Shown here piece after piece: positions 27,297 through 45,870 of a stretch of DNA of 64,000 nucleotides (positions are counted from its first letter, which is position 1; every line of letters starts with the position of its first letter). The notes under the pieces were generated by a model. That model was not told where the DNA came from. It saw only the letters and a list, made by a program, of their open reading frames with translations, and searched no databases. The position numbers were made by a program, and so were the translations under genes. The DNA is from Pseudomonas anguilliseptica (GTDB lineage: Bacteria; Pseudomonadota; Gammaproteobacteria; Pseudomonadales; Pseudomonadaceae). The stretch lies in NCBI RefSeq assembly GCF_021375795.1, contig NZ_JAEIOI010000001.1, forward strand, positions 434,001 through 498,000, in the 5' to 3' direction.

Positions 27297-28532
27297 TTAG
27301 CTCCAGCGTTTGAAGATCAGCGATGTATTCACGCCGCCAAAGGCGAAGTTGTTGTTCATCACGTACTGGTGGCTCATCTGGCGGAACTCGCCGCGCAGAT
27401 AGTCCAGTTCACCACAGGCTGGATCGATATTTTCCAGATTCAGCGTGGGTACATAGTTGTCCTGGTTCAGCATTTCGATACTGAACCAGGACTCCAGTGC
27501 GCCACAGGCACCCAGGGTGTGGCCAAAGTAGCTCTTCTGCGAGCTGATCGGCATCTGGTTGCCGAACAGCTCCTGGGTCGCCAGGGTTTCGGCGACATCG
27601 CCCTGGTCGGTGGCGGTGCCGTGGCCGTTGACGTAGCCGATGGCCGAGGGGACTAAGCCGGCATCCTGCAGCGCCAGTTCCATCGCCCCACGCATGGTGG
27701 CCTGCACCGGTTTGGTGGCGTGCTGGCCATCGGCGTTGCAGCCAAAGCCGACGATCTCGGCGTGGATGGTCGCGCCCCGCGCCAGTGCATGTTCCAGCTC
27801 TTCCAGCACCAGAATGCCGGCGCCTTCACCGATTACCAGGCCATCACGGCCACTGTCGTAAGGGCGCGGCGAGGTGTGTGGGGCATCGTTTTTCAAGCTG
27901 GTGGCGTACAGCGCATCGAAGACCATGGCCTCAGTCGGGCACAGCTCCTCGGCGCCACCGGCGAGCATCATTGGCAGGCGGCCGAACTTGATCGCTTCAT
28001 AGGCGTAGCCGATACCCTGGCTGCCACTGGTGCAGGCGCTGGAGGTGGGAATCAGGCGGCCCTTGAGACCGAAAAAGATGCTGATATTGGCCGCGGTGGT
28101 GTGCGGCATCATGCGGATATAGGAGTTGGCGTTAAGGCCGTCGGCAACCGAGTTGAGCAGCATATTGCCGAACGCCTTGATCTCGTCGGTGCTGCCGGTG
28201 GACGAGCCGCAGGCCACGCCCATACGGCCATCCTGAATGCGCTCATCGCCTAGCAGGCCGGCGTGTTCCAGGGCGCGCTCGGCGGCGTAGACGGCCAGTT
28301 TCGACACGCGGCCCATGCTGCGGGTCTGCTTGCGGTTCCAGTGCTTGGGGGTGACGAAATCATCCACTGGGCCGCCGAGGCGGGTGTTCAGTTCGCTGAA
28401 CCTATCCCACTCATGCATGTAGCGAATGCCGCTTTTGCCGGCTTTGAAATTCGCTTCAATCGTTGACCAGTCGCTGCCCAGCGAGGTCACCCCGGCCATG
28501 CCGGTGACTACAACCCGTTTGCAACCGTTCAT
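27297..28532 (-). CDS. apeR: Beta-ketoacyl-ACP synthase of the aryl polyene pathway (ApeR-like)
   Basis: FabB/FabF-type ketosynthase, 411 aa from ATG 28532, whose A is shared with the stop of the preceding ketoreductase (TGATG). Catalytic triad intact: Cys in SSACTSGSQG, His in NGHGTATDQGD, His in SYFGHTLGACG. Ends with the family motif NNNFAFGGVNTSLIF. In E. coli APE clusters the third ketosynthase (ApeR) is the last gene, as here; it is thought to act early in chain initiation, which is inference for this protein. Last gene of the 18-kb operon. Confidence 0.9.
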   Translation of the reverse strand: MNGCKRVVVTGMAGVTSLGSDWSTIEANFKAGKSGIRYMHEWDRFSELNTRLGGPVDDFVTPKHWNRKQTRSMGRVSKLAVYAAERALEHAGLLGDERIQDGRMGVACGSSTGSTDEIKAFGNMLLNSVADGLNANSYIRMMPHTTAANISIFFGLKGRLIPTSSACTSGSQGIGYAYEAIKFGRLPMMLAGGAEELCPTEAMVFDALYATSLKNDAPHTSPRPYDSGRDGLVIGEGAGILVLEELEHALARGATIHAEIVGFGCNADGQHATKPVQATMRGAMELALQDAGLVPSAIGYVNGHGTATDQGDVAETLATQELFGNQMPISSQKSYFGHTLGACGALESWFSIEMLNQDNYVPTLNLENIDPACGELDYLRGEFRQMSHQYVMNNNFAFGGVNTSLIFKRWS

Positions 28533-29278
28533 CAGCACAACCCACCGTTCACCGCGAGGACCTGGCGGGTAATGTAAGCCGCCTCCTCGGACATCAGAAA
28601 ATTCACCGCGCCGGCCACTTCTTCCGGGGTGCCCATGCGAGCGGCCGGGACCATCTTGAGGATTTCCTCGACCGGAACGTCAGCATCGAGGATTTCGGTG
28701 TCGATAAGCCCCGGCGCCACACAGTTGACCGTGATCTTGCGCTTGCCCAGCTCAATCGCCAAGGCCTTGGCCGCGCCGATGATGCCGGCCTTGGAGGCGC
28801 TGTAGTTGACCTGGCCGCGGTTGCCGATCAGCCCGGAGACCGAGGTGATGCAGACGATGCGGCCCGGTTTGCGGCGGCGAATCATCGGCATGGTCAGTGG
28901 GTGCAGGACGTTGTAGAAGCCGTCGAGGTTGGTGCGCATAACGATGTCCCAGTCCTCGTCACTCAGTGCCGGGAAGGCGCCATCGCGGGTCAACCCTGCA
29001 TTACACACGACCCCATAGTACGCGCCGTGCTGCTCGACATCGGCTTCCAGCGCCGCACGGCAAGCAGCGCGGTCGGATACATCGAATTGCAGGATGCGTG
29101 CCTGCTGGCCTAGCGCCTCGATCTGCGCCTGCACCGCTTCGGCTTCATCGCGGCGCGAACGGCAATGCAGCACGATGTCATAGCCGCTTTTGGCCAGGCG
29201 CAAGGCAATCGCCCGGCCGATGCCACGGCTGGAGCCGGTGACCAGAATGGTTTCACGCGTGGCCGTTGTTTGGTTCAT
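28532..29278 (-). CDS. apeQ: 3-oxoacyl-ACP reductase of the aryl polyene pathway (ApeQ-like)
   Basis: Short-chain dehydrogenase, 248 aa. Cofactor motif TGSSRGIGRAIA near the N-terminus, NAG (VVCNAGLTRDG), catalytic Ser (ITSVSG) and YxxxK (YSASKAG), FabG-like throughout. It would reduce each 3-oxo group during polyene extension using NADPH. I chose ATG 29278 because it overlaps the stop of the dehydratase gene (ATGA); the open frame extends upstream in another gene. Confidence 0.91.
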   Translation of the reverse strand: MNQTTATRETILVTGSSRGIGRAIALRLAKSGYDIVLHCRSRRDEAEAVQAQIEALGQQARILQFDVSDRAACRAALEADVEQHGAYYGVVCNAGLTRDGAFPALSDEDWDIVMRTNLDGFYNVLHPLTMPMIRRRKPGRIVCITSVSGLIGNRGQVNYSASKAGIIGAAKALAIELGKRKITVNCVAPGLIDTEILDADVPVEEILKMVPAARMGTPEEVAGAVNFLMSEEAAYITRQVLAVNGGLC

Positions 29279-29739
29279 GACGGGGACCCTTGAAATTCTT
29301 CCTGAAGATAACTGGCCACTTGCGGTGGGCGGAATACGTTGAGGCGTGCGCTGGCCTCGATGTCGGGGCCGCGCAGGTGGCACTCGAACACGCCCATGCC
29401 GTTGTCGTCCTGCAACGAGCGGCTGGCGTGGATATGCAACACGGCGCCGGCTGGAAAGCGCTCGACGCTGCATTGGTAATTGCGCGTGCCGAGCAGAAAG
29501 CCCAGCTCCACCGGCTGATCCAGCAGGCGCGCCTGGCAGCCGGCATAGGCGGCCACGCTCTGCGCCATCAACTCGATGCCGACCCAGGCGGGCAGGCTGC
29601 CGTCTGCCTGGCTGAACAGATTGCCGTCGCGCACGGTGAGCTGGGTTTCGATGTCTTCGTCACCAAAGCGCAGCACCTGATCGATCAGGATCATGTCGCC
29701 GGCATGGGGAATCAGTTCGGCGATTGGCCATTGGCTCAT
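29275..29739 (-). CDS. apeP: 3-hydroxyacyl-ACP dehydratase, hotdog fold (ApeP-like)
   Basis: 154 aa. Hotdog-fold dehydratase: His in LIPHAGDMILID and Glu in GIELMAQSVAAYAG form the likely catalytic pair, as in the family. It would remove water from 3-hydroxyacyl-ACP to give the conjugated double bonds of the pigment. It pairs with a second dehydratase domain fused to the ligase at 41420-43090. ATGA overlaps at both ends. Confidence 0.88.
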   Translation of the reverse strand: MSQWPIAELIPHAGDMILIDQVLRFGDEDIETQLTVRDGNLFSQADGSLPAWVGIELMAQSVAAYAGCQARLLDQPVELGFLLGTRNYQCSVERFPAGAVLHIHASRSLQDDNGMGVFECHLRGPDIEASARLNVFRPPQVASYLQEEFQGSPS

Positions 29740-30971
29740 CGTGGCTCTCCTGCTTCACCCGGCTCTTCACCCAAGAGCAGGCTGATATTGTTGCCGCCAA
29801 AGGCGAACGAGTTGCTCATCAGTCGGCGTGGGCGGTTGCCGCTCAGCGGTGCGCCGGGTTGCACCAGGTTGAGTGCCGGCAGTGCCGGGTCGGCCTGACC
29901 GTCCCAGATATGCGGCGGCAGCAACTGCTGCGGATTGAACTCACTCAGGGTCAACCAGCAGAAGGCCGCTTCCAGCGCCCCGGCCGCGCCGAGCGTATGG
30001 CCAACCATGGGCTTGCTCGATGAACAGGCCACGCCATGGGGGAAGATGGCCTGCACCGCCTGGCTTTCCATGGCGTCGTTGTGGGTGGTGGCAGTGCCAT
30101 GCAGGTTCAGATAATCGACCTGCTCCGCCCTGATGCCTGCCGCAGCCAGAGCTTTGCGCATGGCGGCCTGAGCCCCCAGGCCATCGGGCTGCGGTGCGGA
30201 AATATGGTGGGCATCGGAGGTCGCGCCGCCGCCGAGCAGGGCGATGGGCACGGTAGAGCCTGCGGGTTCAGTGCTCAGGCGCTCTTTGGTCATAAGAAAC
30301 AGCGCCGCGCCCTCGCCGATATTGATGCCGTTCCGGTTGGCGGAAAACGGGTTGCAGCGTTCGGCCGAGACCGCTTCCAGGGCGGAGAAACCATTCAGGG
30401 TCAGGCGGCACAGGCTGTCCACGCCGCCGCAGATCACTGCATCGCACACGCCCAGGTCAAGCAGGCGCTGGGCGCTGAGCAGCGCGCGGGCGCCCGAGGT
30501 GCAGGCGGTGGAAATGCTGAAGCACGGCCCGCTGAGGCCCAGCCAGTCACTGAGGAAGTTTGCCGGCTCGGCCAGTTCTTGCTGGGCGTAATCATAGGAT
30601 GCCGGCAGCGCCCCCTGTTTAAGGTACTGGCCGATGCCCTGGCTGGCTTCTTCGATGCCTGAGGTGCTGGTGCCGAGCACTACGCCGATGCGCTCGGCAC
30701 CGAAGCGGTTGATGGCCGCGCGCAATTCACCCTCGATTTCCAGGGCGGCCGCCAGCAGCAGCTGATTGTTGCGACTCGGCGGATGGCCCGGCAGGGCCGG
30801 CAACTCTGGCAGCTCGCCAGGTACGGCGCCGACGGTCAGCGTGTGCTCGGTCACCCAGCCGTTTTGCTGGTGCATGCCGCTGGTGTCGCCAGCAAACAGC
30901 GCGGCTGCGACCGCCTGTTTGCCTTGGCCGAGGGCACAGTTGAGGCCCAGGGCTGAGAGGTATGCGGCCAT
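29736..30971 (-). CDS. apeO: Beta-ketoacyl-ACP synthase, main elongating enzyme (ApeO-like)
   Basis: 411-aa ketosynthase with Cys in STACTSGARA, His in LHGTATTHNDAMES and His in KPMVGHTLGAAG, ending SNSFAFGGNNISLLL. In the E. coli system ApeO forms a heterodimer with the chain-length-factor protein ApeC; the partner here would be the product of 44927-45658. The shared base at its start (TGATG with the lipoprotein gene) shows tight coupling. Confidence 0.9.
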   Translation of the reverse strand: MAAYLSALGLNCALGQGKQAVAAALFAGDTSGMHQQNGWVTEHTLTVGAVPGELPELPALPGHPPSRNNQLLLAAALEIEGELRAAINRFGAERIGVVLGTSTSGIEEASQGIGQYLKQGALPASYDYAQQELAEPANFLSDWLGLSGPCFSISTACTSGARALLSAQRLLDLGVCDAVICGGVDSLCRLTLNGFSALEAVSAERCNPFSANRNGINIGEGAALFLMTKERLSTEPAGSTVPIALLGGGATSDAHHISAPQPDGLGAQAAMRKALAAAGIRAEQVDYLNLHGTATTHNDAMESQAVQAIFPHGVACSSSKPMVGHTLGAAGALEAAFCWLTLSEFNPQQLLPPHIWDGQADPALPALNLVQPGAPLSGNRPRRLMSNSFAFGGNNISLLLGEEPGEAGEPR

Positions 30972-31471
30972 CAGGGTGCCTTATCGTCAGGGAGGGCGCT
31001 GACCTGATAGATCAGATCAAGCGAGCGCTCCAGGGTGAAATCCAGCGGCGCACGGTAACTGATTCGCCACTGCGGGTTAAGCCGGCGCGTGCCATCGGTG
31101 TCCAGTTGCCAGTTGCCCCCAGGGTAGTGACTGGGCAGTTGCGCGCTGGGCGTAAGGGCGAACAGCAGGGCGGCGAACAGTTCGCGGGCTTCGGCGTTGG
31201 GTGGTAAGAGGCCGTCGCTGTGCCATGCGCCATCACGCAGCATCTGCCGCGCCAGCGGCACGCCGAGCGGGTCGAACAGCGAGGCGCGCAACCCCTGTGG
31301 TTCGTCCTGCAGCACCAGCCACCAGGTGTGCTGGTTGGCGGCCTGCTGGCGCTGCACCTGCAGGGCCAGTGGCAGCGGCGCGGTCAGGCTGGGTGACTGG
31401 GCTGGCAGTGGCGTCTGCACGGCGCAGGCCGCGAGCAGCAGGCAGCAGCCGATAAGCCAGGCGCGGCGCAT
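30971..31471 (-). CDS. DUF3261-type outer-membrane lipoprotein of the APE cluster (ApeN position)
   Basis: 166-aa lipoprotein, MRRAWLIGCCLLLAACAVQ with lipobox LAAC. I chose ATG 31471, which shares a base with the methyltransferase stop; an ATG at 31480 is also possible. The rest is beta-rich (WWLVLQDEPQGLRASLFDPLGVPLARQ) with no catalytic motif. Small lipoproteins of this kind recur in APE clusters and are thought to help place the lipid in the outer membrane together with the LolA-like carrier; the precise role is unknown. Confidence 0.8.
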   Translation of the reverse strand: MRRAWLIGCCLLLAACAVQTPLPAQSPSLTAPLPLALQVQRQQAANQHTWWLVLQDEPQGLRASLFDPLGVPLARQMLRDGAWHSDGLLPPNAEARELFAALLFALTPSAQLPSHYPGGNWQLDTDGTRRLNPQWRISYRAPLDFTLERSLDLIYQVSALPDDKAP

Positions 31472-32196
31472 CAGGTGCATGGTTCCAGCGGCTTGCGCGC
31501 CACCACGTTGACCAGGGTTTCGTTGCGTTGGCCAACCGGTTTGGCTTTCATCAGGCCCCAGCGTTCCAGCAAGCCAAAGTCCTTGGAGCGGCTCCACCAC
31601 AAATAGGGGTAGGAGATATTGTCGGCGGCAAATTCGAAGCCCTGATCGCGCAGCATAGCCAGATAGCCTTCGGCGCTTTTCTGCACATGCATGGGGTGGC
31701 GGAACAGCCAGCGGATCACCCAGGTGTCGATATAGTACTGGGTCGATTCGGCAAACAGCAGGTAACCGCCTGGCTTGAGCACGCGCCAGAACTCGGCCAG
31801 GGCCTGCTCCTGCTCGACCAGGTGGTGGAAGGTCTGGTGACAGAACAGCAGGTCAACGCTGGCATCGGCCAGGTCGATGGCCGCGCAGTCGCTGGTGAGC
31901 AGCTGCACCTCCAGGCCCAGCCGCTCTGCCTCGGCGCGCGAGCAGTCGAGGCTGTGCGGGTCGGCATCCAGACCGATCATTCGCGCAGGTGCAAACGCTT
32001 CATTGAGCAAGCCGAAGGACTTGCCCTGGCCGCAGCCGGCATCCAGCAGCACCGGCGCTTCTGGCAGCGGACCGTCAAACAGGCCGCGCAGGTCATTGAT
32101 CGCCACGCGCAGCACATGGTGCTGCCAGACGTGGCTCTGCAGGAACCAGAAACCGAAACGGGTTTCCTCGACGTAGCTGGTGGCCGGGTTGTTCAT
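31471..32196 (-). CDS. SAM-dependent class I methyltransferase
   Basis: 241 aa from ATG 32196, chosen because it follows the flavoenzyme stop by 11 nt. Rossmann-fold motif I LLDAGCGQGKSFG, acidic residue at the end of strand 2 (IGLDADPHSL), DLLFCHQTFHHL and RVLKPGGYLLFAES are typical. It may methylate a ring hydroxyl of the aryl head group; several known aryl polyenes carry methyl or methoxy groups. Substrate not deducible from sequence. Confidence 0.82.
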   Translation of the reverse strand: MNNPATSYVEETRFGFWFLQSHVWQHHVLRVAINDLRGLFDGPLPEAPVLLDAGCGQGKSFGLLNEAFAPARMIGLDADPHSLDCSRAEAERLGLEVQLLTSDCAAIDLADASVDLLFCHQTFHHLVEQEQALAEFWRVLKPGGYLLFAESTQYYIDTWVIRWLFRHPMHVQKSAEGYLAMLRDQGFEFAADNISYPYLWWSRSKDFGLLERWGLMKAKPVGQRNETLVNVVARKPLEPCT

Positions 32197-32207
32197 GGAT
32201 GTCCTTA

Positions 32208-33452
32208 TCAGTTGCTGGCGCAGAGCTCGGCGAGCACCCGCAGGCGGCGGCGCGGCTCGGCGACATAGGGGTTGTTCTGGTCCCAGGCGTAGCCGGCGAG
32301 GATCGAGCTGATCATGCGGCGGATCTCCGGCTGGGCCTTCTCGAAATAGATCACGTCCTGGAAGCTGCCGTCGTACCAACCTTCGACATACACGCGGAAA
32401 GTGTCGACGCCGCGTTTGAGCGGAATGGCAAAGTCCTGCTCCCAGTCCACCGCTTCGCCGCTGAGTTGGCGGTGCAGCAGGCCGGCGGCCATGCTCGCCG
32501 AGCGCATGGCGATGGTCACCCCAGAGCTGAACACCGGGTCGAGGAATTCCGCCGCGTTGCCGAGCAGGGCAAAGCCTGGGCCATGCAGGGTTTTCACGTT
32601 GGCCGAGTAGCCGCCGATGGTGCGCGCCGGGGTGTCCCATACGGCATTTTTCAGCACCTTGTGCAGGCTGGGAGTCTCTTCGATAAATTGCTTCAAGCAG
32701 GCGTCCAGATCCTCTGGGCGACCCTCATAGCGGGTGGCATCGGCGACGACGCCCACCGAGCAGCGACCGTTGCTGAACGGGATGGTCCAGAACCACACGT
32801 CGCGCAGGGTCGGGTGAGTGGTGATGAGAATCTTCTCACGGTCGAAGCCAGTGCCTTCGCTGCGGTCTTCGACGTGGGTGAACACCGCCTGACGCACCGG
32901 GAAGTTCGACGGTGTGTCGAGGTCGAGCAGGCGCGGCAGCACACGGCCGTAGCCACTGCCATCGAGGACGAAGGCGCATTCGACCTGGTATTCGTGGCCA
33001 TCGGCGAGGCGGCGTACCGAGAGGCGCGGGCAGTCACCGCTGAAATCGACGGCGAAGATTTCTTCTTCATAGCGGATTTCCACGCCTTGCAACTCGGCCT
33101 GGTCGGCCAGCAGCTTGTCGAAATCGGCGCGCAGCACCTGATAGGTCGAGCCTTGACCTTTGGTGAAGGTGTCGCGGAAATCGAACTCGGTGTAACGCTC
33201 GCCCCAGCCAAAGGCTGCGCCATGTTTGGTCTGGAAGCCCGCTGCGCGCACCGCATCGAGCATCCCGGCTTCTTCGACGAAGTCCAGACAGTGCGACAGC
33301 AGGCTCTCGCCGATCGAGAAGCGCGGGAAGCGCTGGCGCTCCAGCACCAGCACGTCATGGCCGTTGCGCTTGAGTAGCGCGGCGGCAATCGCGCCGGACG
33401 GGCCGGCACCGATGACTACGACTTGGCGTTGTTCGACTTCAAGAGACTTCAT
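32208..33452 (-). CDS. FAD-dependent halogenase-like/monooxygenase-like enzyme
   Basis: 414 aa. N-terminal FAD motif VVVIGAGPSGAIAAALL, GESLL(SH) after strand 2, and WFWTIPFSNGR near the middle, which fits the WxWxIP signature of flavin-dependent halogenases; LLGNAAEFLDPVFSSG is the second FAD/halogenase-family motif. It could halogenate or hydroxylate the aryl ring. Xanthomonadins, a related pigment class, are brominated, so halogenation is plausible, but related proteins with this motif may lack the activity. Overlaps the upstream antiporter-like gene by 14 bases. Confidence 0.78.
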   Translation of the reverse strand: MKSLEVEQRQVVVIGAGPSGAIAAALLKRNGHDVLVLERQRFPRFSIGESLLSHCLDFVEEAGMLDAVRAAGFQTKHGAAFGWGERYTEFDFRDTFTKGQGSTYQVLRADFDKLLADQAELQGVEIRYEEEIFAVDFSGDCPRLSVRRLADGHEYQVECAFVLDGSGYGRVLPRLLDLDTPSNFPVRQAVFTHVEDRSEGTGFDREKILITTHPTLRDVWFWTIPFSNGRCSVGVVADATRYEGRPEDLDACLKQFIEETPSLHKVLKNAVWDTPARTIGGYSANVKTLHGPGFALLGNAAEFLDPVFSSGVTIAMRSASMAAGLLHRQLSGEAVDWEQDFAIPLKRGVDTFRVYVEGWYDGSFQDVIYFEKAQPEIRRMISSILAGYAWDQNNPYVAEPRRRLRVLAELCASN

Positions 33453-36938: not shown

Positions 36939-37602
36939 GCTGCTCCTGCTCAGTCAGGGCATTGCCGGCCTGGCTATCCGGCAAGCGCAGCACGCTGTAA
37001 TCGCCCTGTGTTTCATGCAGTTCTATGCGTTGCACCAGCGCGCCGCCATCAATCTGGATACGGCTGAAAATCTGCTTGAGCAACACCGAGTTCGGCACCA
37101 GACGCAGTTGCCAGGCCTCGGCGGTGCCGCTTAATTGCAGCTCAAAATCTCGTGCCAGACCGCTGTGGTCGCCCTTGAGTACAGCGAGAAATAGCCGGCT
37201 CTGCTGGGCGGCGACATCCTGTCCCGGCTGTTGTTGCCAGCCGCTCGGCGTGCGTTTGGCGATGCCTTGGCTGTCGATGCGGTAATCCTGTTTGAGCGGG
37301 CTGTGCAGCTGCCAGAGCAGGCCGAGGTCGCGGCTCAGGGCAAACTGGCCACGACTGGTCAGCGGCTGCGGCAGGGCGCGCAGGTGTTTTTCCTGAATCA
37401 GTGGGCCGCGCACCACCGCAGGTTTGGCCAGCTGGGCGCTGAGTTGGTCGAGGTCGAAGGCGTGAGCCTGGGTGGTCAGCAGCAGGCTTAGCGTCAGGCC
37501 TATTGTCGCGGTGAGTTTACGCTTGGGTTGCGCCCCCTCGGGCGCGTCACTTTTTCTTGCTTGCCCAAGAAAAAGTAACCAAAAAGAAGGGCACCCCGAC
37601 AT
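36922..37602 (-). CDS. LolA-like outer-membrane lipid carrier (ApeL position), start inside a repeat
   Basis: Periplasmic carrier of the LolA family. The mature part begins FDLDQLSAQLAKPAVVRG and includes RGPLIQEKHL. A signal peptide (KRKLTATIGLTLSLLLTTQAHA) is clear, but no ATG or GTG lies just in front of it: the sequence upstream belongs to a dispersed repeat at 37527-37812. The nearest in-frame ATG is 37602, inside the repeat, giving 226 aa with ~27 extra residues (MSGCPSFWLLFLGQ...) before the signal. Alternatively translation begins at a rare codon near 37530. Insertion of the repeat probably removed the original start. Confidence 0.75.
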   Translation of the reverse strand: MSGCPSFWLLFLGQARKSDAPEGAQPKRKLTATIGLTLSLLLTTQAHAFDLDQLSAQLAKPAVVRGPLIQEKHLRALPQPLTSRGQFALSRDLGLLWQLHSPLKQDYRIDSQGIAKRTPSGWQQQPGQDVAAQQSRLFLAVLKGDHSGLARDFELQLSGTAEAWQLRLVPNSVLLKQIFSRIQIDGGALVQRIELHETQGDYSVLRLPDSQAGNALTEQEQRDFAQ

Positions 37603-37812
37603 CCGGGTCTCGCTGCGCTCGACTTCCCTCGCTCCATCGCTGTTCCAGAGGCCCGCCGCGAAGGGCCATCCCTGGCCCATCGCGGCTCTCGCGGCACCCA
37701 TGCCGCTCAACCTCTTCCACAGCGATTGCGCTCGGCCTTCTGACGGGTACGGTCCCCGCTCCAACATTTTTGTTGGGCAGGAGCTGAGCGCGCGGCTTAA
37801 TCCGGCCCAAAG
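37527..37812. repeat. Dispersed ~290-bp pseudomonad repeat inside the APE operon
   Basis: The block between the LolA-like and thioesterase genes has a different character from both. It includes GCGCCCCCTCGGGCGCG, the long palindrome ACTTTTTCTTGCTTGCCCAAGAAAAAGT, and GCCCGCCGCGAAGGGCCATCC. I recognise this sequence type as one scattered through Pseudomonas genomes. No transposase is encoded. Boundaries are approximate: just after the thioesterase stop on one side and just before the signal-peptide codons of the LolA-like gene on the other. All other junctions in the operon overlap or are at most 11 bases. Confidence 0.8.
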
Positions 37813-37817
37813 ACTGT

Positions 37818-38243
37818 TCACGCCAACACCTTCTCAACCGCCTCAATCAACACCTTGGGCGAAGCGAACTGCATCTCCCGCGTCGCGATTTCCACGGCGA
37901 CCTGCACGCTGCTGCCACGGGTCATGCGGTCACCGGTTGCTGCATCGCTGATCAGGTAGTTGATCTTCAGGCGGTTCTCCCACTCCACCAGATCGGCGCG
38001 CACGATGATCTGCTGGCCGAACTGTGCGCCACGGATATAGCGCAGTTGCAGGTCGATCACCGGCCAGGCGTAGCCAGCGTCACGCATCTGCACGTAGTTG
38101 TGGCCGAGCTTGTCGAGCAGGGCGCAACGCGCTTGTTCGAAGTATTTGACGTAGTGGCCGTGCCAGACCACTTCCATCATGTCGACGTCGAAGAACGGCA
38201 CCTGCAGTTCGATTTCCGCCTGCAATACGCCCTTGCTACGCAT
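37818..38243 (-). CDS. 4-hydroxybenzoyl-CoA-type thioesterase (ApeK position)
   Basis: 141-aa hotdog thioesterase. The family motif with catalytic Asp is clear: FFDVDMMEVVWHGHYVKYFEQAR. The ATG at 38243 lies in the final codons of the ammonia lyase gene (8-base overlap). It may release the finished polyene acid from its carrier protein or clear stalled intermediates; the choice between these is inference. Confidence 0.86.
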   Translation of the reverse strand: MRSKGVLQAEIELQVPFFDVDMMEVVWHGHYVKYFEQARCALLDKLGHNYVQMRDAGYAWPVIDLQLRYIRGAQFGQQIIVRADLVEWENRLKINYLISDAATGDRMTRGSSVQVAVEIATREMQFASPKVLIEAVEKVLA

Positions 38244-39777
38244 AGAGCCTCCAGTGCTGTTCGCGGATGCGGGTCAGGCACAGGCGCAGCTCGGCTTCCA
38301 GGGCGCGGTCTTCGATCACTGGGTGGAAGTCCACGGCCAGTTGCTCGCGCATGGCGGCGACCGGCGCAGGGATATCGCTCTTGCCGTCGCGCTGGCGCAG
38401 CCACACGCCCTGGTTGGCGGCCAGCAGCGTGGCGGCGGCGACCTGTTCGGTCAGCTCCAGGCTGCGCAGGGCGTCGCGGGCGGCGATGGTGCCCATGCTC
38501 ACCTTGTCCTGGTTGTGGCATTCGGTGGAGCGCGAGAACACGCTGGCCGGCAGGGTGTTTTTCAGCGCTTCGGCGGTCCAGGCGCTGGTGCCGATCTGCA
38601 CGGCCTTGAAGCCGTGGTTGATCATTGCGCTGACGCTCGGCGCGCCGGACAGGTTGCTCGGCAGGCCGTGGTTGTAGCGGGTGTCGACCAGCAGGGCGAG
38701 CTGGCGGTCGAGCAGGTCGGCGACGTTGCCCACCAGGTTCTTCAGGCTGTCCATGGCGAAGGCGATATGCCCGCCGTAGAAGTGCCCGCCGTGCAGCACG
38801 CGTTCTTCTTCGGCGTCGATCAGCGGGTTGTCGTTGGCGCTGTTCAGTTCGGTTTCGATGAACTGGCGCAGCAGGCCCAGGCTGTCGGCCAGCACGCCCA
38901 GTACATGCGGGGCGCAGCGCAGCGAGTAACGGTCCTGCAGGCGGTGCAGTGGCGCGGTCGGCGCGTCGATGGCCAGGTCCTGGCGCAGCCAGGCGGCGAC
39001 CTGCATCTGACCCGGATGCGGTTTGGCGGCGAACAGGCGCTCGTCGAAGTGCTCCGGGTTGCCTTCCAGCGCCACCACATTGAGTGCGGTGATGCGCGTG
39101 GCCAGCTTGAGCAGGTAATCGGCGCGGGAGAACGCCTGGCAGGCCAGGGCGGTCATCACCGCAGTGCCATTCATCAGCGCCAGGGCTTCTTTCGGGCGCA
39201 GCACCAGCGGCGTCCAGCCCAGCTCGTTGTGCACGTCGATGGCGCTGCGGCGTTCGCCGTTGAACAGCACTTCACGCTCACCGGACAGGGTGGCGGCAAC
39301 GTAGGACAGCGGCGTGAGGTCGCCACTGGCGCCGACCGAGCCTTCTTCCGGGATCAGCGGCAGCACGTCGTATTCGAGAAACGCTTGCAGGCGCTCGAGC
39401 AGCTCCACGCGTACCCCGGAAACCCCGTGGCACAGCGACTGCAAGCGTGCGGCGAGCACGGCGCGGGTGCTGGCTTGATCCAGCAGCTTGCCCAGACCGC
39501 AGCCGTGGAAGGTGTACAGATGACGCGGCAGCGCCTCGACCTGATGCAGCGGCACGGCCACCACGCAGGAGTCGCCATAGCCGGTGGTGACGCCGTAGAT
39601 CACCCCTTCCTTGTCCAGCAGGCTGTCGAGAAAACGTGCGCCTTTGGCGATTTTTTCGCGGTAGGCGGCATCGCTTTGCAGCTGCGCCGGGGCGCTGCGG
39701 CTGGCCAGGGCGACGACCTGCTCGATGCGCAGGGGCTGTTCGCCAAACACGATGGGATCAGGCTGATGTGTCGTCAT
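38236..39777 (-). CDS. MIO-dependent aromatic amino acid ammonia lyase (HAL/TAL-like)
   Basis: 513 aa from ATG 39777, chosen with GGA upstream; an ATG two codons earlier is possible. The Ala-Ser-Gly triad that cyclises to the MIO cofactor is at residues 150-152 (GSVGASGDLTPL), and catalytic Tyr61 is in YGVTTGYG. The pair that governs ring selectivity reads Phe90-His91 (LYTFHGCG), where I recall Ser-His in histidine lyases and His-Leu in the R. sphaeroides tyrosine lyase. Given the pathway, it probably makes cinnamate or 4-coumarate as aryl starter; histidine specificity cannot be excluded from sequence. Confidence 0.85.
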   Translation of the reverse strand: MTTHQPDPIVFGEQPLRIEQVVALASRSAPAQLQSDAAYREKIAKGARFLDSLLDKEGVIYGVTTGYGDSCVVAVPLHQVEALPRHLYTFHGCGLGKLLDQASTRAVLAARLQSLCHGVSGVRVELLERLQAFLEYDVLPLIPEEGSVGASGDLTPLSYVAATLSGEREVLFNGERRSAIDVHNELGWTPLVLRPKEALALMNGTAVMTALACQAFSRADYLLKLATRITALNVVALEGNPEHFDERLFAAKPHPGQMQVAAWLRQDLAIDAPTAPLHRLQDRYSLRCAPHVLGVLADSLGLLRQFIETELNSANDNPLIDAEEERVLHGGHFYGGHIAFAMDSLKNLVGNVADLLDRQLALLVDTRYNHGLPSNLSGAPSVSAMINHGFKAVQIGTSAWTAEALKNTLPASVFSRSTECHNQDKVSMGTIAARDALRSLELTEQVAAATLLAANQGVWLRQRDGKSDIPAPVAAMREQLAVDFHPVIEDRALEAELRLCLTRIREQHWRLYA

Positions 39778-40696
39778 CTTCATTCCAGAACGGGTAGAAA
39801 TTGAACCATTGCAGGGGCGCACTCAGGCAGCGCTGGGCCAGGCGGTCGGCATAACGCTGGGTGCATTGGCGGATCGTTTCATCGCGCTCGCTGCGCTTCC
39901 ACGGCAGGCGCTCGATAAAGGGTTCGAGGATCACCTGGTAGCGGCCATTGATCTTCAAGCAGCTCATCAGGTTGACCGGGCATTGCAGCAGCCCGGCCAG
40001 CAGCCAGGGGCCTTGTGGGAAGTCCGCCGGCTGGCCGAGAAAATCCACGCTGACTTTGCGGCTGCCCTTGAGCGGTACGCGGTCGCCGGCAATCGCCAGC
40101 CATTCGCCACGTTCCAGTCGCTCGGACAATTGCAGCATGATTGCCGCGTCCAGTTCGCTGACCTGGATCAGGCGCATATGGCTGGCCCCGGCGTCGGCCA
40201 GCAGGCGGTTGAACTGTTCGGCATGTTTGGTGTGCAGCAGCACGTTCATCTGCACCCGCGCGCCGACTTCGGCCAGGGCGCGGCAGACTTCCAGGTTACC
40301 CAGATGTGCGGCCACCAGAATCTGCCCGCGGTTCTGCCGTTGCAGTTGGCCGCAGAGGTCGTCGGGGTCGATCAGGTCGACCTGCTCCAGGCCGAGGCGG
40401 CCGCTCCATACGTCGAGCTTGTCGAGCAGGGTATCGGCGAAGCTCATGAATTGGCGGAAGACCGAGAGCCGGGTCGGCTTCAGCTCGGCGCGCCCGCTCC
40501 AGGCCGCCAGGTTGCTCTGGTAGTGGCGGATGCTACGCCGCGCCTTGGCGCCGAACAGGTAGAAATACAGCACGATCAGATACAGCAACGGGCTGATCAG
40601 GCGACGGCCCAGCACACGTGCCAGCCAGGCGGTGAATTTCATCAGGATAAAACTGCCGCGCTCGCGCTGGCTGGCCCAATGGCGTTGATCACTCAT
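39758..40696 (-). CDS. LpxL-like lysophospholipid/lipid acyltransferase (ApeJ-type, acyltransferase part)
   Basis: 312 aa with an N-terminal membrane segment (LISPLLYLIVLYFYLFG) and the HxxxxE motif of lauroyl/myristoyl transferases (AHLGNLEVC), followed by GDRVPL. I chose ATG 40696, which overlaps the glycosyltransferase stop (ATGA). As I recall, E. coli encodes a glycosyltransferase-acyltransferase fusion at this position; here they are two genes with a four-base overlap. Likely attaches an acyl or polyene acyl chain to the sugar-lipid carrier; inference. Confidence 0.82.
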   Translation of the reverse strand: MSDQRHWASQRERGSFILMKFTAWLARVLGRRLISPLLYLIVLYFYLFGAKARRSIRHYQSNLAAWSGRAELKPTRLSVFRQFMSFADTLLDKLDVWSGRLGLEQVDLIDPDDLCGQLQRQNRGQILVAAHLGNLEVCRALAEVGARVQMNVLLHTKHAEQFNRLLADAGASHMRLIQVSELDAAIMLQLSERLERGEWLAIAGDRVPLKGSRKVSVDFLGQPADFPQGPWLLAGLLQCPVNLMSCLKINGRYQVILEPFIERLPWKRSERDETIRQCTQRYADRLAQRCLSAPLQWFNFYPFWNEDDDTSA

Positions 40697-41427
40697 GCCC
40701 GCCACCTGTGCCAGAGAATCAGTGGGGCGCGCACTAACATGCCGAAGAACAGCTTGGCGTGCATCTTGGAAATCAGCGCGTTGTCGAGCCACAGGCGAAA
40801 GTGCGAGAGGCCGTCCAGCGGGTAATGCACCTTGGTTGGCAGCCAGTGCATCGGCTGATTGCGCCAGGCCAGGCGCACCAGTACCTCGGTGTCGAAATCC
40901 ATGCGTTTGCCGATGTTTACCGCGTCGATCAGCGCCAGAGTGGCGGGCAGCGGGTAGACACGAAAGCCGCACATGGAGTCGCGGATACTCAGCGACAGGG
41001 TGTTGATCCACACCCAGATGTGGGTCAGGTAGCGCGCATAGAGGCGGCCTTTCGGCACGCTGTCGTCGTACTGTGGGTAGCCGCAGATCAGTGCGTGTGG
41101 TGCGGTTTGCGAGGCATCGATAAAGCGCGGCAGATCGCTGAGGTCGTGCTGGCCATCGGCGTCTACCTGCAGCGCATGGCTGAAGCCTAGCCGCGCCGCC
41201 TCACGCAGCCCGGCCATCACCGCGCCGCCCTTGCCCTGGTTGACTGGCAGACGGACGAGGTGGGTGTCGGGTTGTGCGGCCAACTGATCCATCACCGCTG
41301 CGCAGCTGCTGCTGGATGCGTCATCAACCAGCACGCAGGGCAGGCCGGCCGCATGCAGCGCGGCGACCACCACGGGTAGGGCGTGTTCGTGGTTGTAGAC
41401 CGGGATTACCGCGCAGGGCTTATGCAC
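40693..41427 (-). CDS. Family 2 glycosyltransferase
   Basis: 244 aa. GT2 motifs: CAVIPVYNHEHALP at the N-terminus, VDDASSSS, GKGGAVMAGLREA, and the metal/nucleotide-sugar DxD site in LQVDADGQHDLSDL. No long transmembrane tail. Probably links the aryl polyene to a sugar-containing lipid head, forming the glycolipid anchored in the outer membrane; donor and acceptor are unknown. Overlaps the ligase gene by eight bases. Confidence 0.85.
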   Translation of the reverse strand: MHKPCAVIPVYNHEHALPVVVAALHAAGLPCVLVDDASSSSCAAVMDQLAAQPDTHLVRLPVNQGKGGAVMAGLREAARLGFSHALQVDADGQHDLSDLPRFIDASQTAPHALICGYPQYDDSVPKGRLYARYLTHIWVWINTLSLSIRDSMCGFRVYPLPATLALIDAVNIGKRMDFDTEVLVRLAWRNQPMHWLPTKVHYPLDGLSHFRLWLDNALISKMHAKLFFGMLVRAPLILWHRWRA

Positions 41428-43090
41428 TGGCAGCCCCCAGCAAAATCCGCCCGGAGGAGCAGGCGGCCTCGCCGTTGCGGAAAGCGAAGTACAGCTTGCC
41501 GCGCGCGGCGTCGAAACGCAGGGTCAATTGCAGACGGTCACCGGGGCGCACCAACTGCTGGAATTTCAGCACTTCCATGCCGCTGAAGCGTGGCGGCAGA
41601 TCCTTGATCAGCTGTCGCGCCAGCTGCTGCGCCCAGTCGATTTGCACCACGCCGGGCAGCACCGGGGTCTGCGGGAAGTGCCCGCTAAAATGCGCCAGGT
41701 CCAGCGGTACATCCAGTTCCAACTGCCATTCGCCGTCCTGCTCGACGGCCGAGTTGGGTTCGACCTGGGTCGGCCGTGGCGCTGCCAGCACGGCTTCGAC
41801 GGTGGCCTGGGGCAGTTTGCCCTGGCTGGTGTAGGGCAGCTGCGCCAGCAGACGCCAGCGGCGGGGCAGGGCGATGGCTTCGCAATGCTCGGCCAGGTGA
41901 CGGCGCAGGGTTTCGGTAACAGTCTTGCGGCCCTGGTTGCGCAGGGCGTGCAAGCCGGCCGGGCTCAGGGCAACCAGGGCGCCGAGGTAGGCACGGCCTT
42001 CCTGCACCACACCCAGGCGTGCATCGCTGAGCCATTCGTGGCTGCTCAGCGCCTGTTCGAGCATGGGCAGGGAAATGCGTTTTTCTTCCAGCTTGATGAT
42101 GCGGTCCAGGCGGCCGCGCAGGGCAAAGCGGCCATCGGCCTGCAGCTCCACCGCATCGGCAGTCTGCTCGCGGTGGCCGGCAGGCAGATACGGCGAGGTC
42201 AGGTGCAGCGCACCTTCGGCGTTTTGTCCCAATACGATGCCGGCAAACGGCGTCCACAGTTCCCCGCCCTGACGCCAGGCGATACCGCCGGTTTCCGAGC
42301 TGCCGTAGATTTCCGTGGGCCATTGGCCAAGCAGCGTGTGCAACTCGGTGGCGGTTTCACCTGGCAGCGCGCCGCCTGAGGAAAACACCTGGCGCACCGC
42401 GCGCAGCGCCGGCCAGTTGAGGTTGTCGCCCATTCTTTTTAATAGCGCGGGGCTGGCCACCCAGGCGAAAGCCGTGCCGGTTGCCAGGCTTTCGCGCTGC
42501 AAATCTTCGGGGAACGGTTGGGCGCGGCGCAGGAACGCGCGGCCGGCGCAGAGTGGCCACAGCACGCGAAACAGCAGGCCGTAGATATGCTGAGTGGCGA
42601 CGCTGCCGAGAATGGTCGCGTCGCCCAGTTGCGCGCCCCACAGCTGTTCCAGCGCCTCGACTTCATTGGTCAGTTGGCGCAGGGACTTGTCGATCAGCTT
42701 GGCTTCACCGCTGGAGCCGGAGGTGCACAGGGTCAACCTGCATTGGTCGAGCTCCAGCGTGGCTGGTGGCAATGCGACACTTTCTGGATTTAGCAGGTCA
42801 TCCAGGTTGTCCAGCCACAGGTCGCACTGGCTGGCCATGCGCTGGCGGGTTTGCGGCTGGGCATCGGCCGGCAGCAGCACGGCAATCCCGGCGCGCCAGG
42901 CGGCGAGCAGGGCAATCGCCAGTTCGCCGGCGTCGTCCAGATACAGGGCCAGACGCTGCACGCTACGCGCTTGCAGCTCAGCGGCCAGGCGCAGAGCGTG
43001 CTGGCGCAGCGCTGGCTGGTCCATATCCGGGGTTGCCGGGCGACCGCTGTGGGCTTTGTCGAGCAGGTGCTCGAGGGGCAGCCAGTTCAT
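41420..43090 (-). CDS. Acyl-ACP ligase fused to a FabZ-like dehydratase domain (ApeH-ApeI fusion)
   Basis: 556 aa, two domains. Residues ~1-440 are an adenylate-forming ligase: CTSGSSGEAKLIDKS (phosphate loop), YGSSETGGIAW, GRLDRIIKLEEKRIS and the final Lys in TSQGKLPQ. It would activate the aryl acid starter for loading onto a carrier protein. Residues ~460-556 are a hotdog domain with the FabZ-like HFSGHFPQTPVLPGV motif; the usual catalytic Glu position reads Asp (VQIDWA). In E. coli the two functions are, as I recall, separate genes apeH and apeI. Confidence 0.86.
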   Translation of the reverse strand: MNWLPLEHLLDKAHSGRPATPDMDQPALRQHALRLAAELQARSVQRLALYLDDAGELAIALLAAWRAGIAVLLPADAQPQTRQRMASQCDLWLDNLDDLLNPESVALPPATLELDQCRLTLCTSGSSGEAKLIDKSLRQLTNEVEALEQLWGAQLGDATILGSVATQHIYGLLFRVLWPLCAGRAFLRRAQPFPEDLQRESLATGTAFAWVASPALLKRMGDNLNWPALRAVRQVFSSGGALPGETATELHTLLGQWPTEIYGSSETGGIAWRQGGELWTPFAGIVLGQNAEGALHLTSPYLPAGHREQTADAVELQADGRFALRGRLDRIIKLEEKRISLPMLEQALSSHEWLSDARLGVVQEGRAYLGALVALSPAGLHALRNQGRKTVTETLRRHLAEHCEAIALPRRWRLLAQLPYTSQGKLPQATVEAVLAAPRPTQVEPNSAVEQDGEWQLELDVPLDLAHFSGHFPQTPVLPGVVQIDWAQQLARQLIKDLPPRFSGMEVLKFQQLVRPGDRLQLTLRFDAARGKLYFAFRNGEAACSSGRILLGAASA

Positions 43091-43632
43091 TCATGTCTCC
43101 TTACGTGCTGGCGCACCAGCCACTCACCGGCAAACAGCAGGCCCATCAGGCCATACGCGATCAGCCCGGTATACAGGGTCCACCAGCTCAGCGGTGCCCA
43201 GAAATTCAGCGCCACCACCACCAGGCCGTTGAGCAGAAAGAAAGCGGCCCAGACCTGCGTCACGGTGCGCGTGTAGCGCACGGCCACTTCCGGCAGCTGC
43301 GGTTCGCTCAGGCGTGCCAGGCGCTCGATCAGCGGCGGGCCGAACTTCAGGCTGAGGCCGAACAACGCCAGCAACAGGCCGTTGAGCAACACTGGGTACC
43401 AGCGCAGCAGTGCCGGCTCGCCGGCCAGGCCGAGCAGCAGGCAGAAGCTCAGGGCCATGGCGGTCATCCAGCGGTTGCCGGGCTTGCCCCATTGCGTCAG
43501 CGCCCGGGCCAGCCACAGGCCGCCAAGGCAGACGGCAAACAGCTGCGGCGAGAGGTGCTCCATGCCGTAATACACGGCAAAGGGGTAGAGCAGCCCGGCC
43601 AGCAGCAGGAGCAGGCCAAATAGGCGACTCAT
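43087..43632 (-). CDS. Small polytopic membrane protein (COG4648-like, ApeG position)
   Basis: 181 aa with about five or six hydrophobic segments (LFGLLLLLAGLLYPFAVYYG first; ALSFCLLLGLAG; WWTLYTGLIAYGLMGLLFAG last). No enzyme motif. A conserved membrane protein of this kind stands between the carrier-protein genes and the ligase gene in other APE clusters. Function unknown. Overlaps the ACP gene by one base and the ligase gene by four. Confidence 0.8.
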   Translation of the reverse strand: MSRLFGLLLLLAGLLYPFAVYYGMEHLSPQLFAVCLGGLWLARALTQWGKPGNRWMTAMALSFCLLLGLAGEPALLRWYPVLLNGLLLALFGLSLKFGPPLIERLARLSEPQLPEVAVRYTRTVTQVWAAFFLLNGLVVVALNFWAPLSWWTLYTGLIAYGLMGLLFAGEWLVRQHVRRHE

Positions 43633-43892
43633 TATTCGCTGGCTGGGGCGTTGACCAGTTGCAGCACCGCCTCGACCACATCACCAACGGTGCGCACTGC
43701 CTTGAACTCTTCGGCCGCAAGCTTTTTACCGGTCTGACGCTTGATATGGTCGATCAGGTCGACCGCATCAATGCTATCGATCTCAAGGTCCTGATAGAGG
43801 TTCGCTTCCGGTGTAATACGTTCGGGCTCCAGCTCGAACAGCTCGACCAGGGCGTCGCGCAGGGTGTCGAAAATCTCTTCACGGGTTTGCAT
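43632..43892 (-). CDS. apeF: Acyl carrier protein 2 (ApeF-like)
   Basis: 86-aa acidic helical carrier protein. The phosphopantetheine serine lies in LEIDSIDAVDLIDH (near residue 40). Second of two tandem carrier proteins, 11 nt after the first, and distinct enough in sequence that they may hold different intermediates, for example starter and growing chain. Which does which cannot be read from sequence alone. Confidence 0.9.
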   Translation of the reverse strand: MQTREEIFDTLRDALVELFELEPERITPEANLYQDLEIDSIDAVDLIDHIKRQTGKKLAAEEFKAVRTVGDVVEAVLQLVNAPASE

Positions 43893-43903
43893 CGGCGGCT
43901 TCC

Positions 43904-44164
43904 TCAGGCGGTTTGTTGCGATGACACGAATGCCGCCAGGCTGGCTACGTTGGCAAAGTGCTTGCGGGTGTCTTTGGCTTCGGCGTCGATCTTGATGCCG
44001 AAACGTTTCTGGATCGCCAGGCCGAGTTCCAGGGCGTCTACCGAGTCCAGGCCCAGGCCTTCACCGAACAGGGTCAGGTCGGCGGCGATATCCTCTGCGG
44101 CCATGTCTTCGAGGCCCAGGGCGTCGATGATCAGGTTTTTAATTTCCAGCTGCAAATCGCTCAT
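43904..44164 (-). CDS. apeE: Acyl carrier protein 1 (ApeE-like)
   Basis: 86 aa from ATG 44164 (MSDLQLEIKNLIIDALGLED). Phosphopantetheine serine in GLGLDSVDALELGLAI. Starts 26 bases inside the end of the acyltransferase gene. Together with the next carrier protein it forms the tandem ACP pair typical of aryl polyene clusters. Confidence 0.9.
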   Translation of the reverse strand: MSDLQLEIKNLIIDALGLEDMAAEDIAADLTLFGEGLGLDSVDALELGLAIQKRFGIKIDAEAKDTRKHFANVASLAAFVSSQQTA

Positions 44165-44954
44165 CTTCGGCGAGCTCCTTAATAAAGTGTTGGTGCAGTA
44201 CATCATTGAGTTTGCGGGACGCAATCGGCGCTGGCCCCAGTGCATTGAACTGTTGTGGGTCGATATCCTCGCCTACCCGAAGGCGGAAGTGAAAGCGACG
44301 CGACGGAATGCTGTACCAGGGCTCGGCCTTGGTCAGGGTGGTGGGCGTGACGCTGATTACCACCGGGGTGACAACGCGTGCGCCGCGCAGGGCAATGGCC
44401 GCTGCGCCACGGTGAAATTCCGGGTGCTGGCCCGGCGTGGTGCGCGTGCCTTCCGGGAAAATCACCAGGGTCTGGCCGCTCTGCAGGGCGCTGGCGGCTT
44501 CGTCGAGCATGTCCATGCTGCCGCTGTTGCTGATGTAACCGGCGGCGCGGATCGGTCCGCGCATGCTCGGGTTGTCCCACAGGCTCTGTTTGACCACGCA
44601 GTTGGCATCACGAATAAAGGCGATCAGCACCACCACGTCGATCAGTGACGGGTGATTGGCAATCACCATCTGGCCTGGCTGGCCGAGACGCTCGATGCCT
44701 TCGACTTCGTAGGTCAGCACGCCGCTGCGGTACATAAAACGTACGAACAGGTAGAAGGTCTTGCTCACCACGGCGCGCGCGCGGGTACGCCGAACCAGGC
44801 TGTCACCCGGCAGCAGGGCCAGCAGCGGGAAGATCAGTACGCGCAGCAGCACCCCGCCGATGCCGAACAGGCTGAAACTCAGGGCCGTAGCGATCAGCCG
44901 CCACCAATAGGGCGCGCTGTACCGGCTCAGACCTTGTTGCGAGACCAGGTCCAT
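44139..44954 (-). CDS. PlsC-type 1-acylglycerol-3-phosphate acyltransferase (ApeD position)
   Basis: 271 aa from ATG 44954 (MDLVSQQGLSRYSAPYWWRL). Membrane segments near residues 20-50, then the acyltransferase box HxxxxD (NHPSLID) and the substrate motif FPEGTRT. It could acylate a glycerolipid that later bears the polyene. Overlaps the upstream chain-length-factor-like gene by 28 bases. Confidence 0.85.
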   Translation of the reverse strand: MDLVSQQGLSRYSAPYWWRLIATALSFSLFGIGGVLLRVLIFPLLALLPGDSLVRRTRARAVVSKTFYLFVRFMYRSGVLTYEVEGIERLGQPGQMVIANHPSLIDVVVLIAFIRDANCVVKQSLWDNPSMRGPIRAAGYISNSGSMDMLDEAASALQSGQTLVIFPEGTRTTPGQHPEFHRGAAAIALRGARVVTPVVISVTPTTLTKAEPWYSIPSRRFHFRLRVGEDIDPQQFNALGPAPIASRKLNDVLHQHFIKELAEDERFAAGN

Positions 44955-45658
44955 TGGCGGTTCTTCCAGTGATGTTGCAGGGTGGTCTGGTCGCTGCACA
45001 GGGCGCGTACCAGGTTGAGCGCGTGCGGCCATTCGCTGCGGACGCCGTCGCCCCGGCTTAGCTGCAACTGCCAGTCTTCGCCCGGGGTCAGCAGCAGGCC
45101 AACCGCATAGGGAAACGGCACGTCATCGATAAACGGCGCGTACAGCGCGGGCGGGGTTTCTTCGGCAATCACCAGCAACACTGCCGGTGCGCCGTCGTGG
45201 AGCATGCCGCAGGCTTCCAGTACGGCGTTTTCCAGGCCGTCGCCGGCACCGGCAATGGCGGTCATTTCGCTGTGATCGCCACGCTGGATCGACCACAGGC
45301 CGATGATCGCGTTGTGTACCGAGAGGCTGAATTGGGTCGGCGACAGCGGCTCGTCGTGTGCCAGATCGCTGAGGATGGTCAGGGTGCGCGGGGTTTCGCC
45401 GTGGCGGCTGGCAAACACCATGGGCAGTTGCGGGTGCGCTTCGGCCAGCGGCCAGGCGACGTGAAAGGCCATACGTGCCAGGCGGCTCAGGCGCCGGCGT
45501 TGCATGGCGGGCAGGGCGCTGACATCCGGCTGTTCGCCGGCATCCGTCAGGCACAGCGGAGCCTGATGCCAGGCGCACCAGTCAGCCGTGCTGTCCAGGC
45601 CAGGGGCCCAGGCACGCCATTGTTCGATCCTGAAGTGTGTCACGCGCTGCGCGTCCAT
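44927..45658 (-). CDS. apeC: Chain-length-factor-like beta-ketoacyl synthase fragment (ApeC-like)
   Basis: 243 aa from ATG 45658; a GTG at 45643 (VTHFRIEQWRAWAPGL) is equally reasonable, and longer starts (45754, 45787) would lie at or upstream of the candidate promoter. The sequence resembles the Ketoacyl-synt_2 family: only about half the length of a ketosynthase, without the Cys-His-His triad. In E. coli ApeC pairs with ApeO as a chain length factor. First gene of the operon, divergent from the ParA-like gene. Confidence 0.75.
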   Translation of the reverse strand: MDAQRVTHFRIEQWRAWAPGLDSTADWCAWHQAPLCLTDAGEQPDVSALPAMQRRRLSRLARMAFHVAWPLAEAHPQLPMVFASRHGETPRTLTILSDLAHDEPLSPTQFSLSVHNAIIGLWSIQRGDHSEMTAIAGAGDGLENAVLEACGMLHDGAPAVLLVIAEETPPALYAPFIDDVPFPYAVGLLLTPGEDWQLQLSRGDGVRSEWPHALNLVRALCSDQTTLQHHWKNRQWTWSRNKV

Positions 45659-45719
45659 GTCGGCTACAGCCAGCCGCAACCAGCGTGGGGCTTGGCAGCA
45701 GGTGTGGCGAAGTGCTGGC

Positions 45720-45748
45720 ATTATCCAGACCACGCGGGTCGTGCGCAA
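45720..45748 (-). promoter_or_regulatory. Candidate promoter of the aryl polyene operon
   Basis: On the minus strand TTGCGC (45748-45743), exactly 17 nt, GATAAT (45725-45720, five of six -10 matches). It would start transcription ~55 nt before the ATG at 45658 and supports that start. No clear operator palindrome and no regulator gene adjacent. Confidence 0.4.
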
Positions 45749-45870
45749 ATCCATGGCGCCGGGTTCTGACCATCGGCGACAGGTCAAGTGCCGAAAATCT
45801 CGCCCTTGTCACGTAGTTTGCATAGAATTCGGGACCATTTCGGGGTTAATGCGGGTCAGGGAGGTGTTTC

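Follow-up and report, generated by a model that had tools for sequence, protein, structure and literature searches.

An ammonia lyase gene within an aryl polyene cluster

The window analyzed here, a 64,000-nucleotide stretch of the 4.04 Mb genome of Pseudomonas anguilliseptica, contains a minus-strand gene cluster spanning positions 27297 to 45787, whose genes were identified with Pfam, NCBIfam and tblastn (Table 1). The cluster comprises, in order, a chain length factor, an acyltransferase, acyl carrier proteins (ACPs), a membrane protein, a ligase fused to an ApeI-like dehydratase, a glycosyltransferase, a further acyltransferase and an ammonia lyase. It continues with a thioesterase, a LolA-like protein, an MMPL-type transporter, a hydrophobic protein, a halogenase-type flavin protein and a methyltransferase. 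Next come a small protein, named only from its position, which is that of the DUF3261 gene, and ApeO, ApeP, ApeQ and ApeR. Going by the genes alone, the presence of the aryl polyene (APE) core genes together with an ammonia lyase and an acyltransferase corresponds to the APE Vf-type gene set.

Table 1. Genes of the APE cluster, with positions in the window.
Feature	Position	Strand	Basis
Ketosynthase, ApeR-like	27297..28538	-	
Ketoreductase, ApeQ-like	28532..29278	-	
ApeP-like dehydratase	29275..29739	-	
Ketosynthase, ApeO-like	29736..30971	-	
SAM methyltransferase; 5' end approximate	31471..32211	-	
Flavin protein, halogenase type (WxWxIP)	32208..33452	-	Pfam, motif
Hydrophobic protein between transporter and flavin gene	33439-34608	-	no Pfam or NCBIfam match
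Thioesterase (ApeK-like); ATG overlaps lyase gene end	37818..38243	-	
MIO-type aromatic amino acid ammonia lyase, 513 aa	38236..39777	-	Pfam, residue count, relatives
Acyltransferase (Lip_A_acyltrans); stop overlaps lyase start; 5' end approximate	39758..40690	-	Pfam
Glycosyltransferase family 2 (ApeJ-like)	40693..41427	-	Pfam
AMP-binding ligase fused to ApeI-like dehydratase; candidate aryl-acid loader	41420..43090	-	
Acyl carrier protein; matches annotated E. coli ACP	43632..43892	-	
Second ACP-like frame	about 43904-44170	-	read by eye
Ketosynthase-like chain length factor (ApeC-like); 5' end approximate	44927..45787	-	

The flavin protein matches Pfam Trp_halogenase at 80.9 bits, and its WFWTIP sequence fits WxWxIP, which we take to be the flavin halogenase motif. 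This motif is kept in all 99 flavin-protein tblastn matches with an E value of 1e-40 or better, and the presence of such a protein hints that the pigment may be halogenated. In the fetched stretches of six lyase-bearing clusters (L133, L136, L137, L140, L141 and L142), tblastn found no match to the flavin protein. The hydrophobic protein has a tblastn match in 52 of 80 named loci, these being the best 80 of a longer list.

Ammonia lyases in Pseudomonas and Aliivibrio fischeri-type APE clusters are already in print, and the lyase described here is a member of this known kind. In one study, an ammonia lyase and an acyltransferase are characteristic of Pseudomonas APE clusters, after MIBiG entry BGC0000837 (eLife; PMC8719888), and the P. 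donghuensis genome paper describes an APE cluster that has an ammonia lyase and resembles that of A. fischeri (PMC5851621); the APE Vf cluster type is thus already described as including an ammonia lyase. We see no categorical difference between the Pseudomonas cluster and the published description of APE Vf of A. fischeri ES114 (BGC0000837). The E. coli APE cluster (apeA-R), as annotated in two genomes, agrees with the present cluster in its core genes and their arrangement, in keeping with the gene table of PMC8253772. It differs in having no lyase between the acyltransferase part and the thioesterase and no halogenase-type flavin gene, and its acyltransferase is part of the glycosyltransferase gene, whereas here it is a separate gene. 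A search of E. coli DNA with the lyase gene gave no match.

The lyase has the predicted fold and the catalytic residues of the MIO family

The lyase reading frame runs on the minus strand from an ATG at 39777 to a stop at 38236 and encodes 513 amino acids with no internal stop. An earlier note on this DNA had these limits right, though it omitted the strand, and it had correctly placed the gene between the acyltransferase and thioesterase genes. The lyase gene overlaps both of these neighbors: its ATG comes ahead of the stop codon of the acyltransferase gene, and its own stop codon comes after the ATG of the thioesterase gene, an arrangement that suggests coupled translation on both sides.

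The protein scores 518 bits against Pfam Lyase_aromatic (PF00221; cut-off 27.3), which assigns it to the MIO-dependent aromatic amino acid lyase family. In this family, an Ala-Ser-Gly triad cyclises to form the MIO electrophile. Counting residues located the triad at Ala150-Ser151-Gly152, and Tyr61, which we take to be the catalytic base, where the earlier note had put them, consistent with a predicted MIO-type lyase. The selectivity pair, Phe90-His91, likewise lies at the positions claimed, and the enzyme also has N203, Q281, Y284, R287, F333, E419 and Q423. Eight NCBIfam models match the lyase, hutH, PAL, FlxA and TAM among them, and none does so at its cut-off. Scores fell short for hutH (378 bits against 539), PRK09367 (387 against 524), FlxA (295 against 700) and the PAL model TIGR01226 (308 against 519), the last of which, at 680 positions, is longer than bacterial enzymes.

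The AlphaFold model of the lyase has a mean pLDDT of 87, with low values for residues 147-152, the MIO loop, and 417-420. The predicted fold matches MIO enzymes over its full length. The tyrosine aminomutase of S. globisporus (SgTAM) comes first (Z 42.5, rmsd 2.1, 491 aligned), with phenylalanine lyase (PAL; Z 41.7) and histidine lyase (HAL; Z 41.5) rows close behind. Since all three lie within about one unit of Z, the fold does not single out a substrate.

Lyases of APE clusters form a separate subfamily

We collected 151 distinct full-length relatives from 174 full-length loci, with identities of 56-97%. The selectivity pair is Phe-His in 147 of them and Tyr-His in the other four, so that His91 is invariant. 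The Ala-Ser-Gly triad, Tyr61 and the aromatic-His pair are kept in every one, a retention far beyond chance, and Asn203, Gln281, Tyr284, Arg287, Phe333, Glu419 and Gln423 are equally unvarying. The nearest named lyases, from P. peli, P. guryensis, P. guineae and their relatives, are 93-97% identical. Beyond the subfamily, the next MIO lyases in the relatives search drop to 38% identity or less; among plasmid records, one Pseudonocardia enzyme reaches 43% and the other rows listed reach at most 39%. On these sequence grounds, the lyases of APE clusters are a well-separated MIO subfamily.

The Pseudonocardia plasmid enzyme (L178, 11926-13551) is the nearest relative seen outside the APE subfamily. 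It has a Phe-Leu pair, yet the same STECHNQDKVSMG motif, and its gene lies near two ketosynthase-type genes, an ACP gene and an acyltransferase gene.

The lyase gene travels with APE genes

Among 369 genomes sampled from the class, 16 including the host's own carry the lyase at 56% identity or more; each of these also has ApeP. ApeP exceeds its cut-off in 36 of the 369, and the overlap between the two genes has a hypergeometric probability of 1.8e-18, a figure that ignores relatedness. Passing the ApeP cut-off does not establish that a cluster is complete: among the 20 lyase-less regions, L248 has no other match and L235 has one. Within the genus, 29 of 35 genomes encode a lyase 81-91% identical to the query; these 29 and the host's own genome have ApeP, and the remaining six have neither gene.

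In 74 of the 80 named loci, nearly all from Pseudomonas, 16 cluster genes occur in identical order, and in 79 the acyltransferase, lyase and thioesterase genes adjoin, the exception being L054, which lacks the acyltransferase; as the best 80 of a longer list, these loci are not informative on breadth. Five other loci depart from this pattern: contig ends truncate L075 and L110, the flavin gene has no match in L084, and in L048 and L056 the best match of the ApeR query is located elsewhere. We viewed 28 further places, of which 16 were regions in relatives from the class and the order, 10 were genomes of a single family (probably Alteromonadaceae) and two were named plasmid records. In all 28 the thioesterase adjoins the lyase among APE genes. 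The 10 genomes, drawn from 55 lyase-bearing ones in that family, all have ordinary APE clusters. Gene order is not rigid, as L130 and L134 have no acyltransferase in front of the lyase; the stretch fetched for L131 does not include the cluster's second half.

The genome that contains L131 (5.1 Mb, two contigs) has a split APE cluster, with the lyase half near 2.98 Mb and ApeP near 3.04 Mb.

Lyase and cluster can be lost independently

One of the 80 named loci overturned the generalization that the lyase only ever occurs inside APE clusters. In P. guineae (L054, 9956-11542), an intact lyase frame, 94% identical to the query, remains where the cluster is gone from both sides. Of the thioesterase, a piece that matches its beginning is left, the other 14 genes tested all lack a match, and the sequence contains no runs of N. 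Across the 4.1 Mb P. guineae genome, no orthologue of ApeO (best match 37% identical) or of the ligase (only short and weak matches) was found. Similarity to P. peli extends from about 50 bases before the lyase start to about 110 bases past its stop, and the genes beyond, a ParA-like gene among them, are the ones that border the cluster at other loci. The pairwise dN/dS of the lone lyase against six relatives is 0.04-0.10, not above that of cluster-borne copies (0.02-0.16). An intact lone gene with such values could indicate that the lyase serves some purpose other than the pigment, or that the cluster was lost very recently. Two separate losses that spared the lyase would be recent and accidental, or else would point to a benefit of the lyase on its own.

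The converse also occurs. On a tree of 42 cluster ligases, the presence or absence of the lyase needs four changes, compared with 11.3 for shuffled labels; the tree covers 29 of 31 lyase-bearing loci and 13 of 22 lyase-less ones, the rest having no full ligase in their stretch. One gain followed by three losses is the natural reading, and well-supported branches force only two changes. Three lyase-less APE clusters, L232, L242 and L245, are nested within the lyase-bearing part of the tree. In L232 and L242 the thioesterase directly follows the acyltransferase, and in the fetched region of L245 no thioesterase was seen. These three clusters suggest that the pathway can run without the lyase. 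The lyase can therefore be dropped from the cluster, and can also be kept without it.

Tyrosine is the first-choice substrate and coumarate the probable starter

Computation showed an MIO fold, the family's catalytic residues, placement within the operon and a close association with APE genes. Building on these results, we propose that the enzyme is the lyase of an APE Vf-type cluster and converts L-tyrosine to trans-4-coumarate as the starter of the pigment, a reading to which we assign a probability of roughly 0.6. The lyase would deaminate an aromatic amino acid, for which L-tyrosine is the likeliest candidate, to give trans-4-coumarate. The cluster's AMP-ligase would then load the coumarate onto an ACP, and the type II ketosynthases would extend the loaded acid into the polyene; use of the lyase product as the starter is suggested by gene placement and by precedent.

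Two characterized enzymes provide that precedent. FlxA of Chitinophaga pinensis likewise starts an aryl polyene, flexirubin; according to PMC3992019, it has Gln at motif 2 and a HAL-like motif 1, kcat/KM values are 7728 for Tyr and 7.7 for Phe, a 1010-fold specificity for Tyr, and His gave no product. By its model score FlxA belongs to another subfamily. AltA of Pseudoalteromonas piscicida, also gammaproteobacterial, supplies coumarate as the polyene starter of the alterochromide pathway, and coumarate rescues its deletion, according to a review (PMC5577590). The alterochromide pathway ends in an NRPS, and none was recognized in the Pseudomonas cluster. These precedents make tyrosine, yielding 4-coumarate, the first choice and phenylalanine the second. 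A full-text search, with most subscription journals outside its coverage, returned no report of a measured substrate for a lyase from a proteobacterial APE cluster.

The residues themselves give a mixed picture. An alignment of the kind the earlier note had called for placed Phe90-His91 opposite Phe-Leu in the Anabaena PAL (AvPAL), His-Leu in the R. sphaeroides tyrosine lyase (TAL) and Ser-His in both SgTAM and the host's own HutH, so the comparison residues cited in that note hold. Phe90 and Glu419 match PAL (AvPAL has Glu-Gln at the second site) and not the R. sphaeroides TAL, whose His-Leu pair is absent here; His91 is like that of SgTAM, and Gln423 is compatible with both tyrosine and phenylalanine enzymes. 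SgTAM is 37% identical to the lyase, with Ser at the first switch position, His at the second and Asn where the lyase has Glu419. The Phe-His pair is less telling of the substrate than had been implied, given the Ser-His of SgTAM and the HAL-like motif of FlxA; since FlxA is a tyrosine lyase with a HAL-like motif at that place, the pair cannot decide between tyrosine and phenylalanine. The FlxA authors regard specificity as unpredictable from sequence alone (PMC3992019).

A less probable reading is that the lyase uses phenylalanine to provide a cinnamate starter, any hydroxyl group being added to the ring later. Two PAL-like residues would fit, Phe90, which occupies the first switch position, and Glu419, and the cluster has a gene of flavin-dependent monooxygenase or halogenase type. 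However, His91, which a tyrosine enzyme (SgTAM) shares, is invariant in the subfamily, and the aryl heads known from APE, flexirubin and alterochromide pigments are phenolic. The flavin protein, moreover, has the halogenase-type motif and finds no match in the six lyase-bearing stretches named above.

Coumarate as the starter must also be weighed against 4-hydroxybenzoate made by UbiC, which the host encodes. Here the lyase would act on tyrosine or phenylalanine, and its product would be shortened first or used for something else. E. coli-type APE synthesis, in clusters that lack the lyase, starts from 4-hydroxybenzoate, by prediction in E. coli itself (PMC8253772), and the lone intact lyase of P. 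guineae would suit a role apart from the pigment. We nevertheless judge this reading improbable, because the lyase is seen only with APE genes except in P. guineae and its gene overlaps both neighbors, and because five of the 16 lyase-bearing class genomes have no UbiC match (one of them is only 85% complete). We rejected UbiC as a discriminator between the two kinds of cluster: among genomes with ApeP, it is found in 11 of the 16 that carry the lyase and 10 of the 20 that do not, with no signal (Fisher p 0.32).

An MIO aminomutase yielding a beta-amino acid is highly improbable: although the first structural match is a tyrosine aminomutase, lyases follow close behind and share the fold with mutases, no user of a beta-amino acid was recognized among the identified cluster genes, and no aminomutase model matched at its cut-off.

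Histidine is, on sequence evidence, an unlikely substrate, and a histidine ammonia lyase is the reading to which we give least credence. His91 corresponds to the second residue of the Ser-His pair, and PRK09367 and hutH score 387 and 378 bits, but both scores lie below the cut-offs given above. Motif 2 carries Glu in HAL and Gln in TAL or PAL (PMC3992019); the lyase aligns Gln423 with the Glu of HutH and so has Gln as in TAL and PAL, with neither the Glu nor the Ser-His of HutH. The host has a separate HutH, which scores 731 bits against the hutH cut-off of 539 and is encoded on another contig beside urocanase (hutU) and a GntR-UTRA regulator. The earlier assignment of the gene to an aromatic lyase of the APE operon, as opposed to histidine breakdown, stands on Gln423, the separate hutH-hutU pair and the APE association.

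Starter chemistry across APE clusters

A 4-hydroxybenzoate starter is predicted for E. coli, and ApeH of Xenorhabdus doucetiae has been shown in vitro to act accordingly (PMC8253772). The earlier note proposed a starter different from that of E. coli, a contrast weakened by the UbiC of the host and by the failure of UbiC to distinguish APE genomes that carry the lyase from those that do not; E. coli was its sole comparison, although the lyase of APE Vf is described in the papers cited above. The contrast is further weakened in that the two starters can lead to one structure, as by our reasoning coumarate extended by n rounds equals 4-hydroxybenzoate extended by n+1 rounds, both giving the skeleton Ar-(CH=CH)n-COOH. 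If the lyase does make the starter, starter chemistry would differ in a large share of clusters, represented by 16 of the 36 genomes with ApeP among those sampled from the class.

More speculatively, and with doubts that outweigh our confidence, the separate subfamily might have a substrate code of its own, an aromatic-His pair with Glu419-Gln423, unlike those of TAL, PAL and HAL. Proteobacterial APE clusters might then fall into two starter classes, hydroxycinnamate where the lyase is present and hydroxybenzoate where it is not, indistinguishable by product structure, and the lyase might outlive the cluster, as in P. guineae, through a second use of its product.

A structural paper on Acinetobacter baumannii models a 4-hydroxybenzoyl starter (PMC8358021). 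One A. baumannii record (L180, 11992-13527) carries the lyase inside an APE cluster, despite the 4-hydroxybenzoyl starter assumed for the species.
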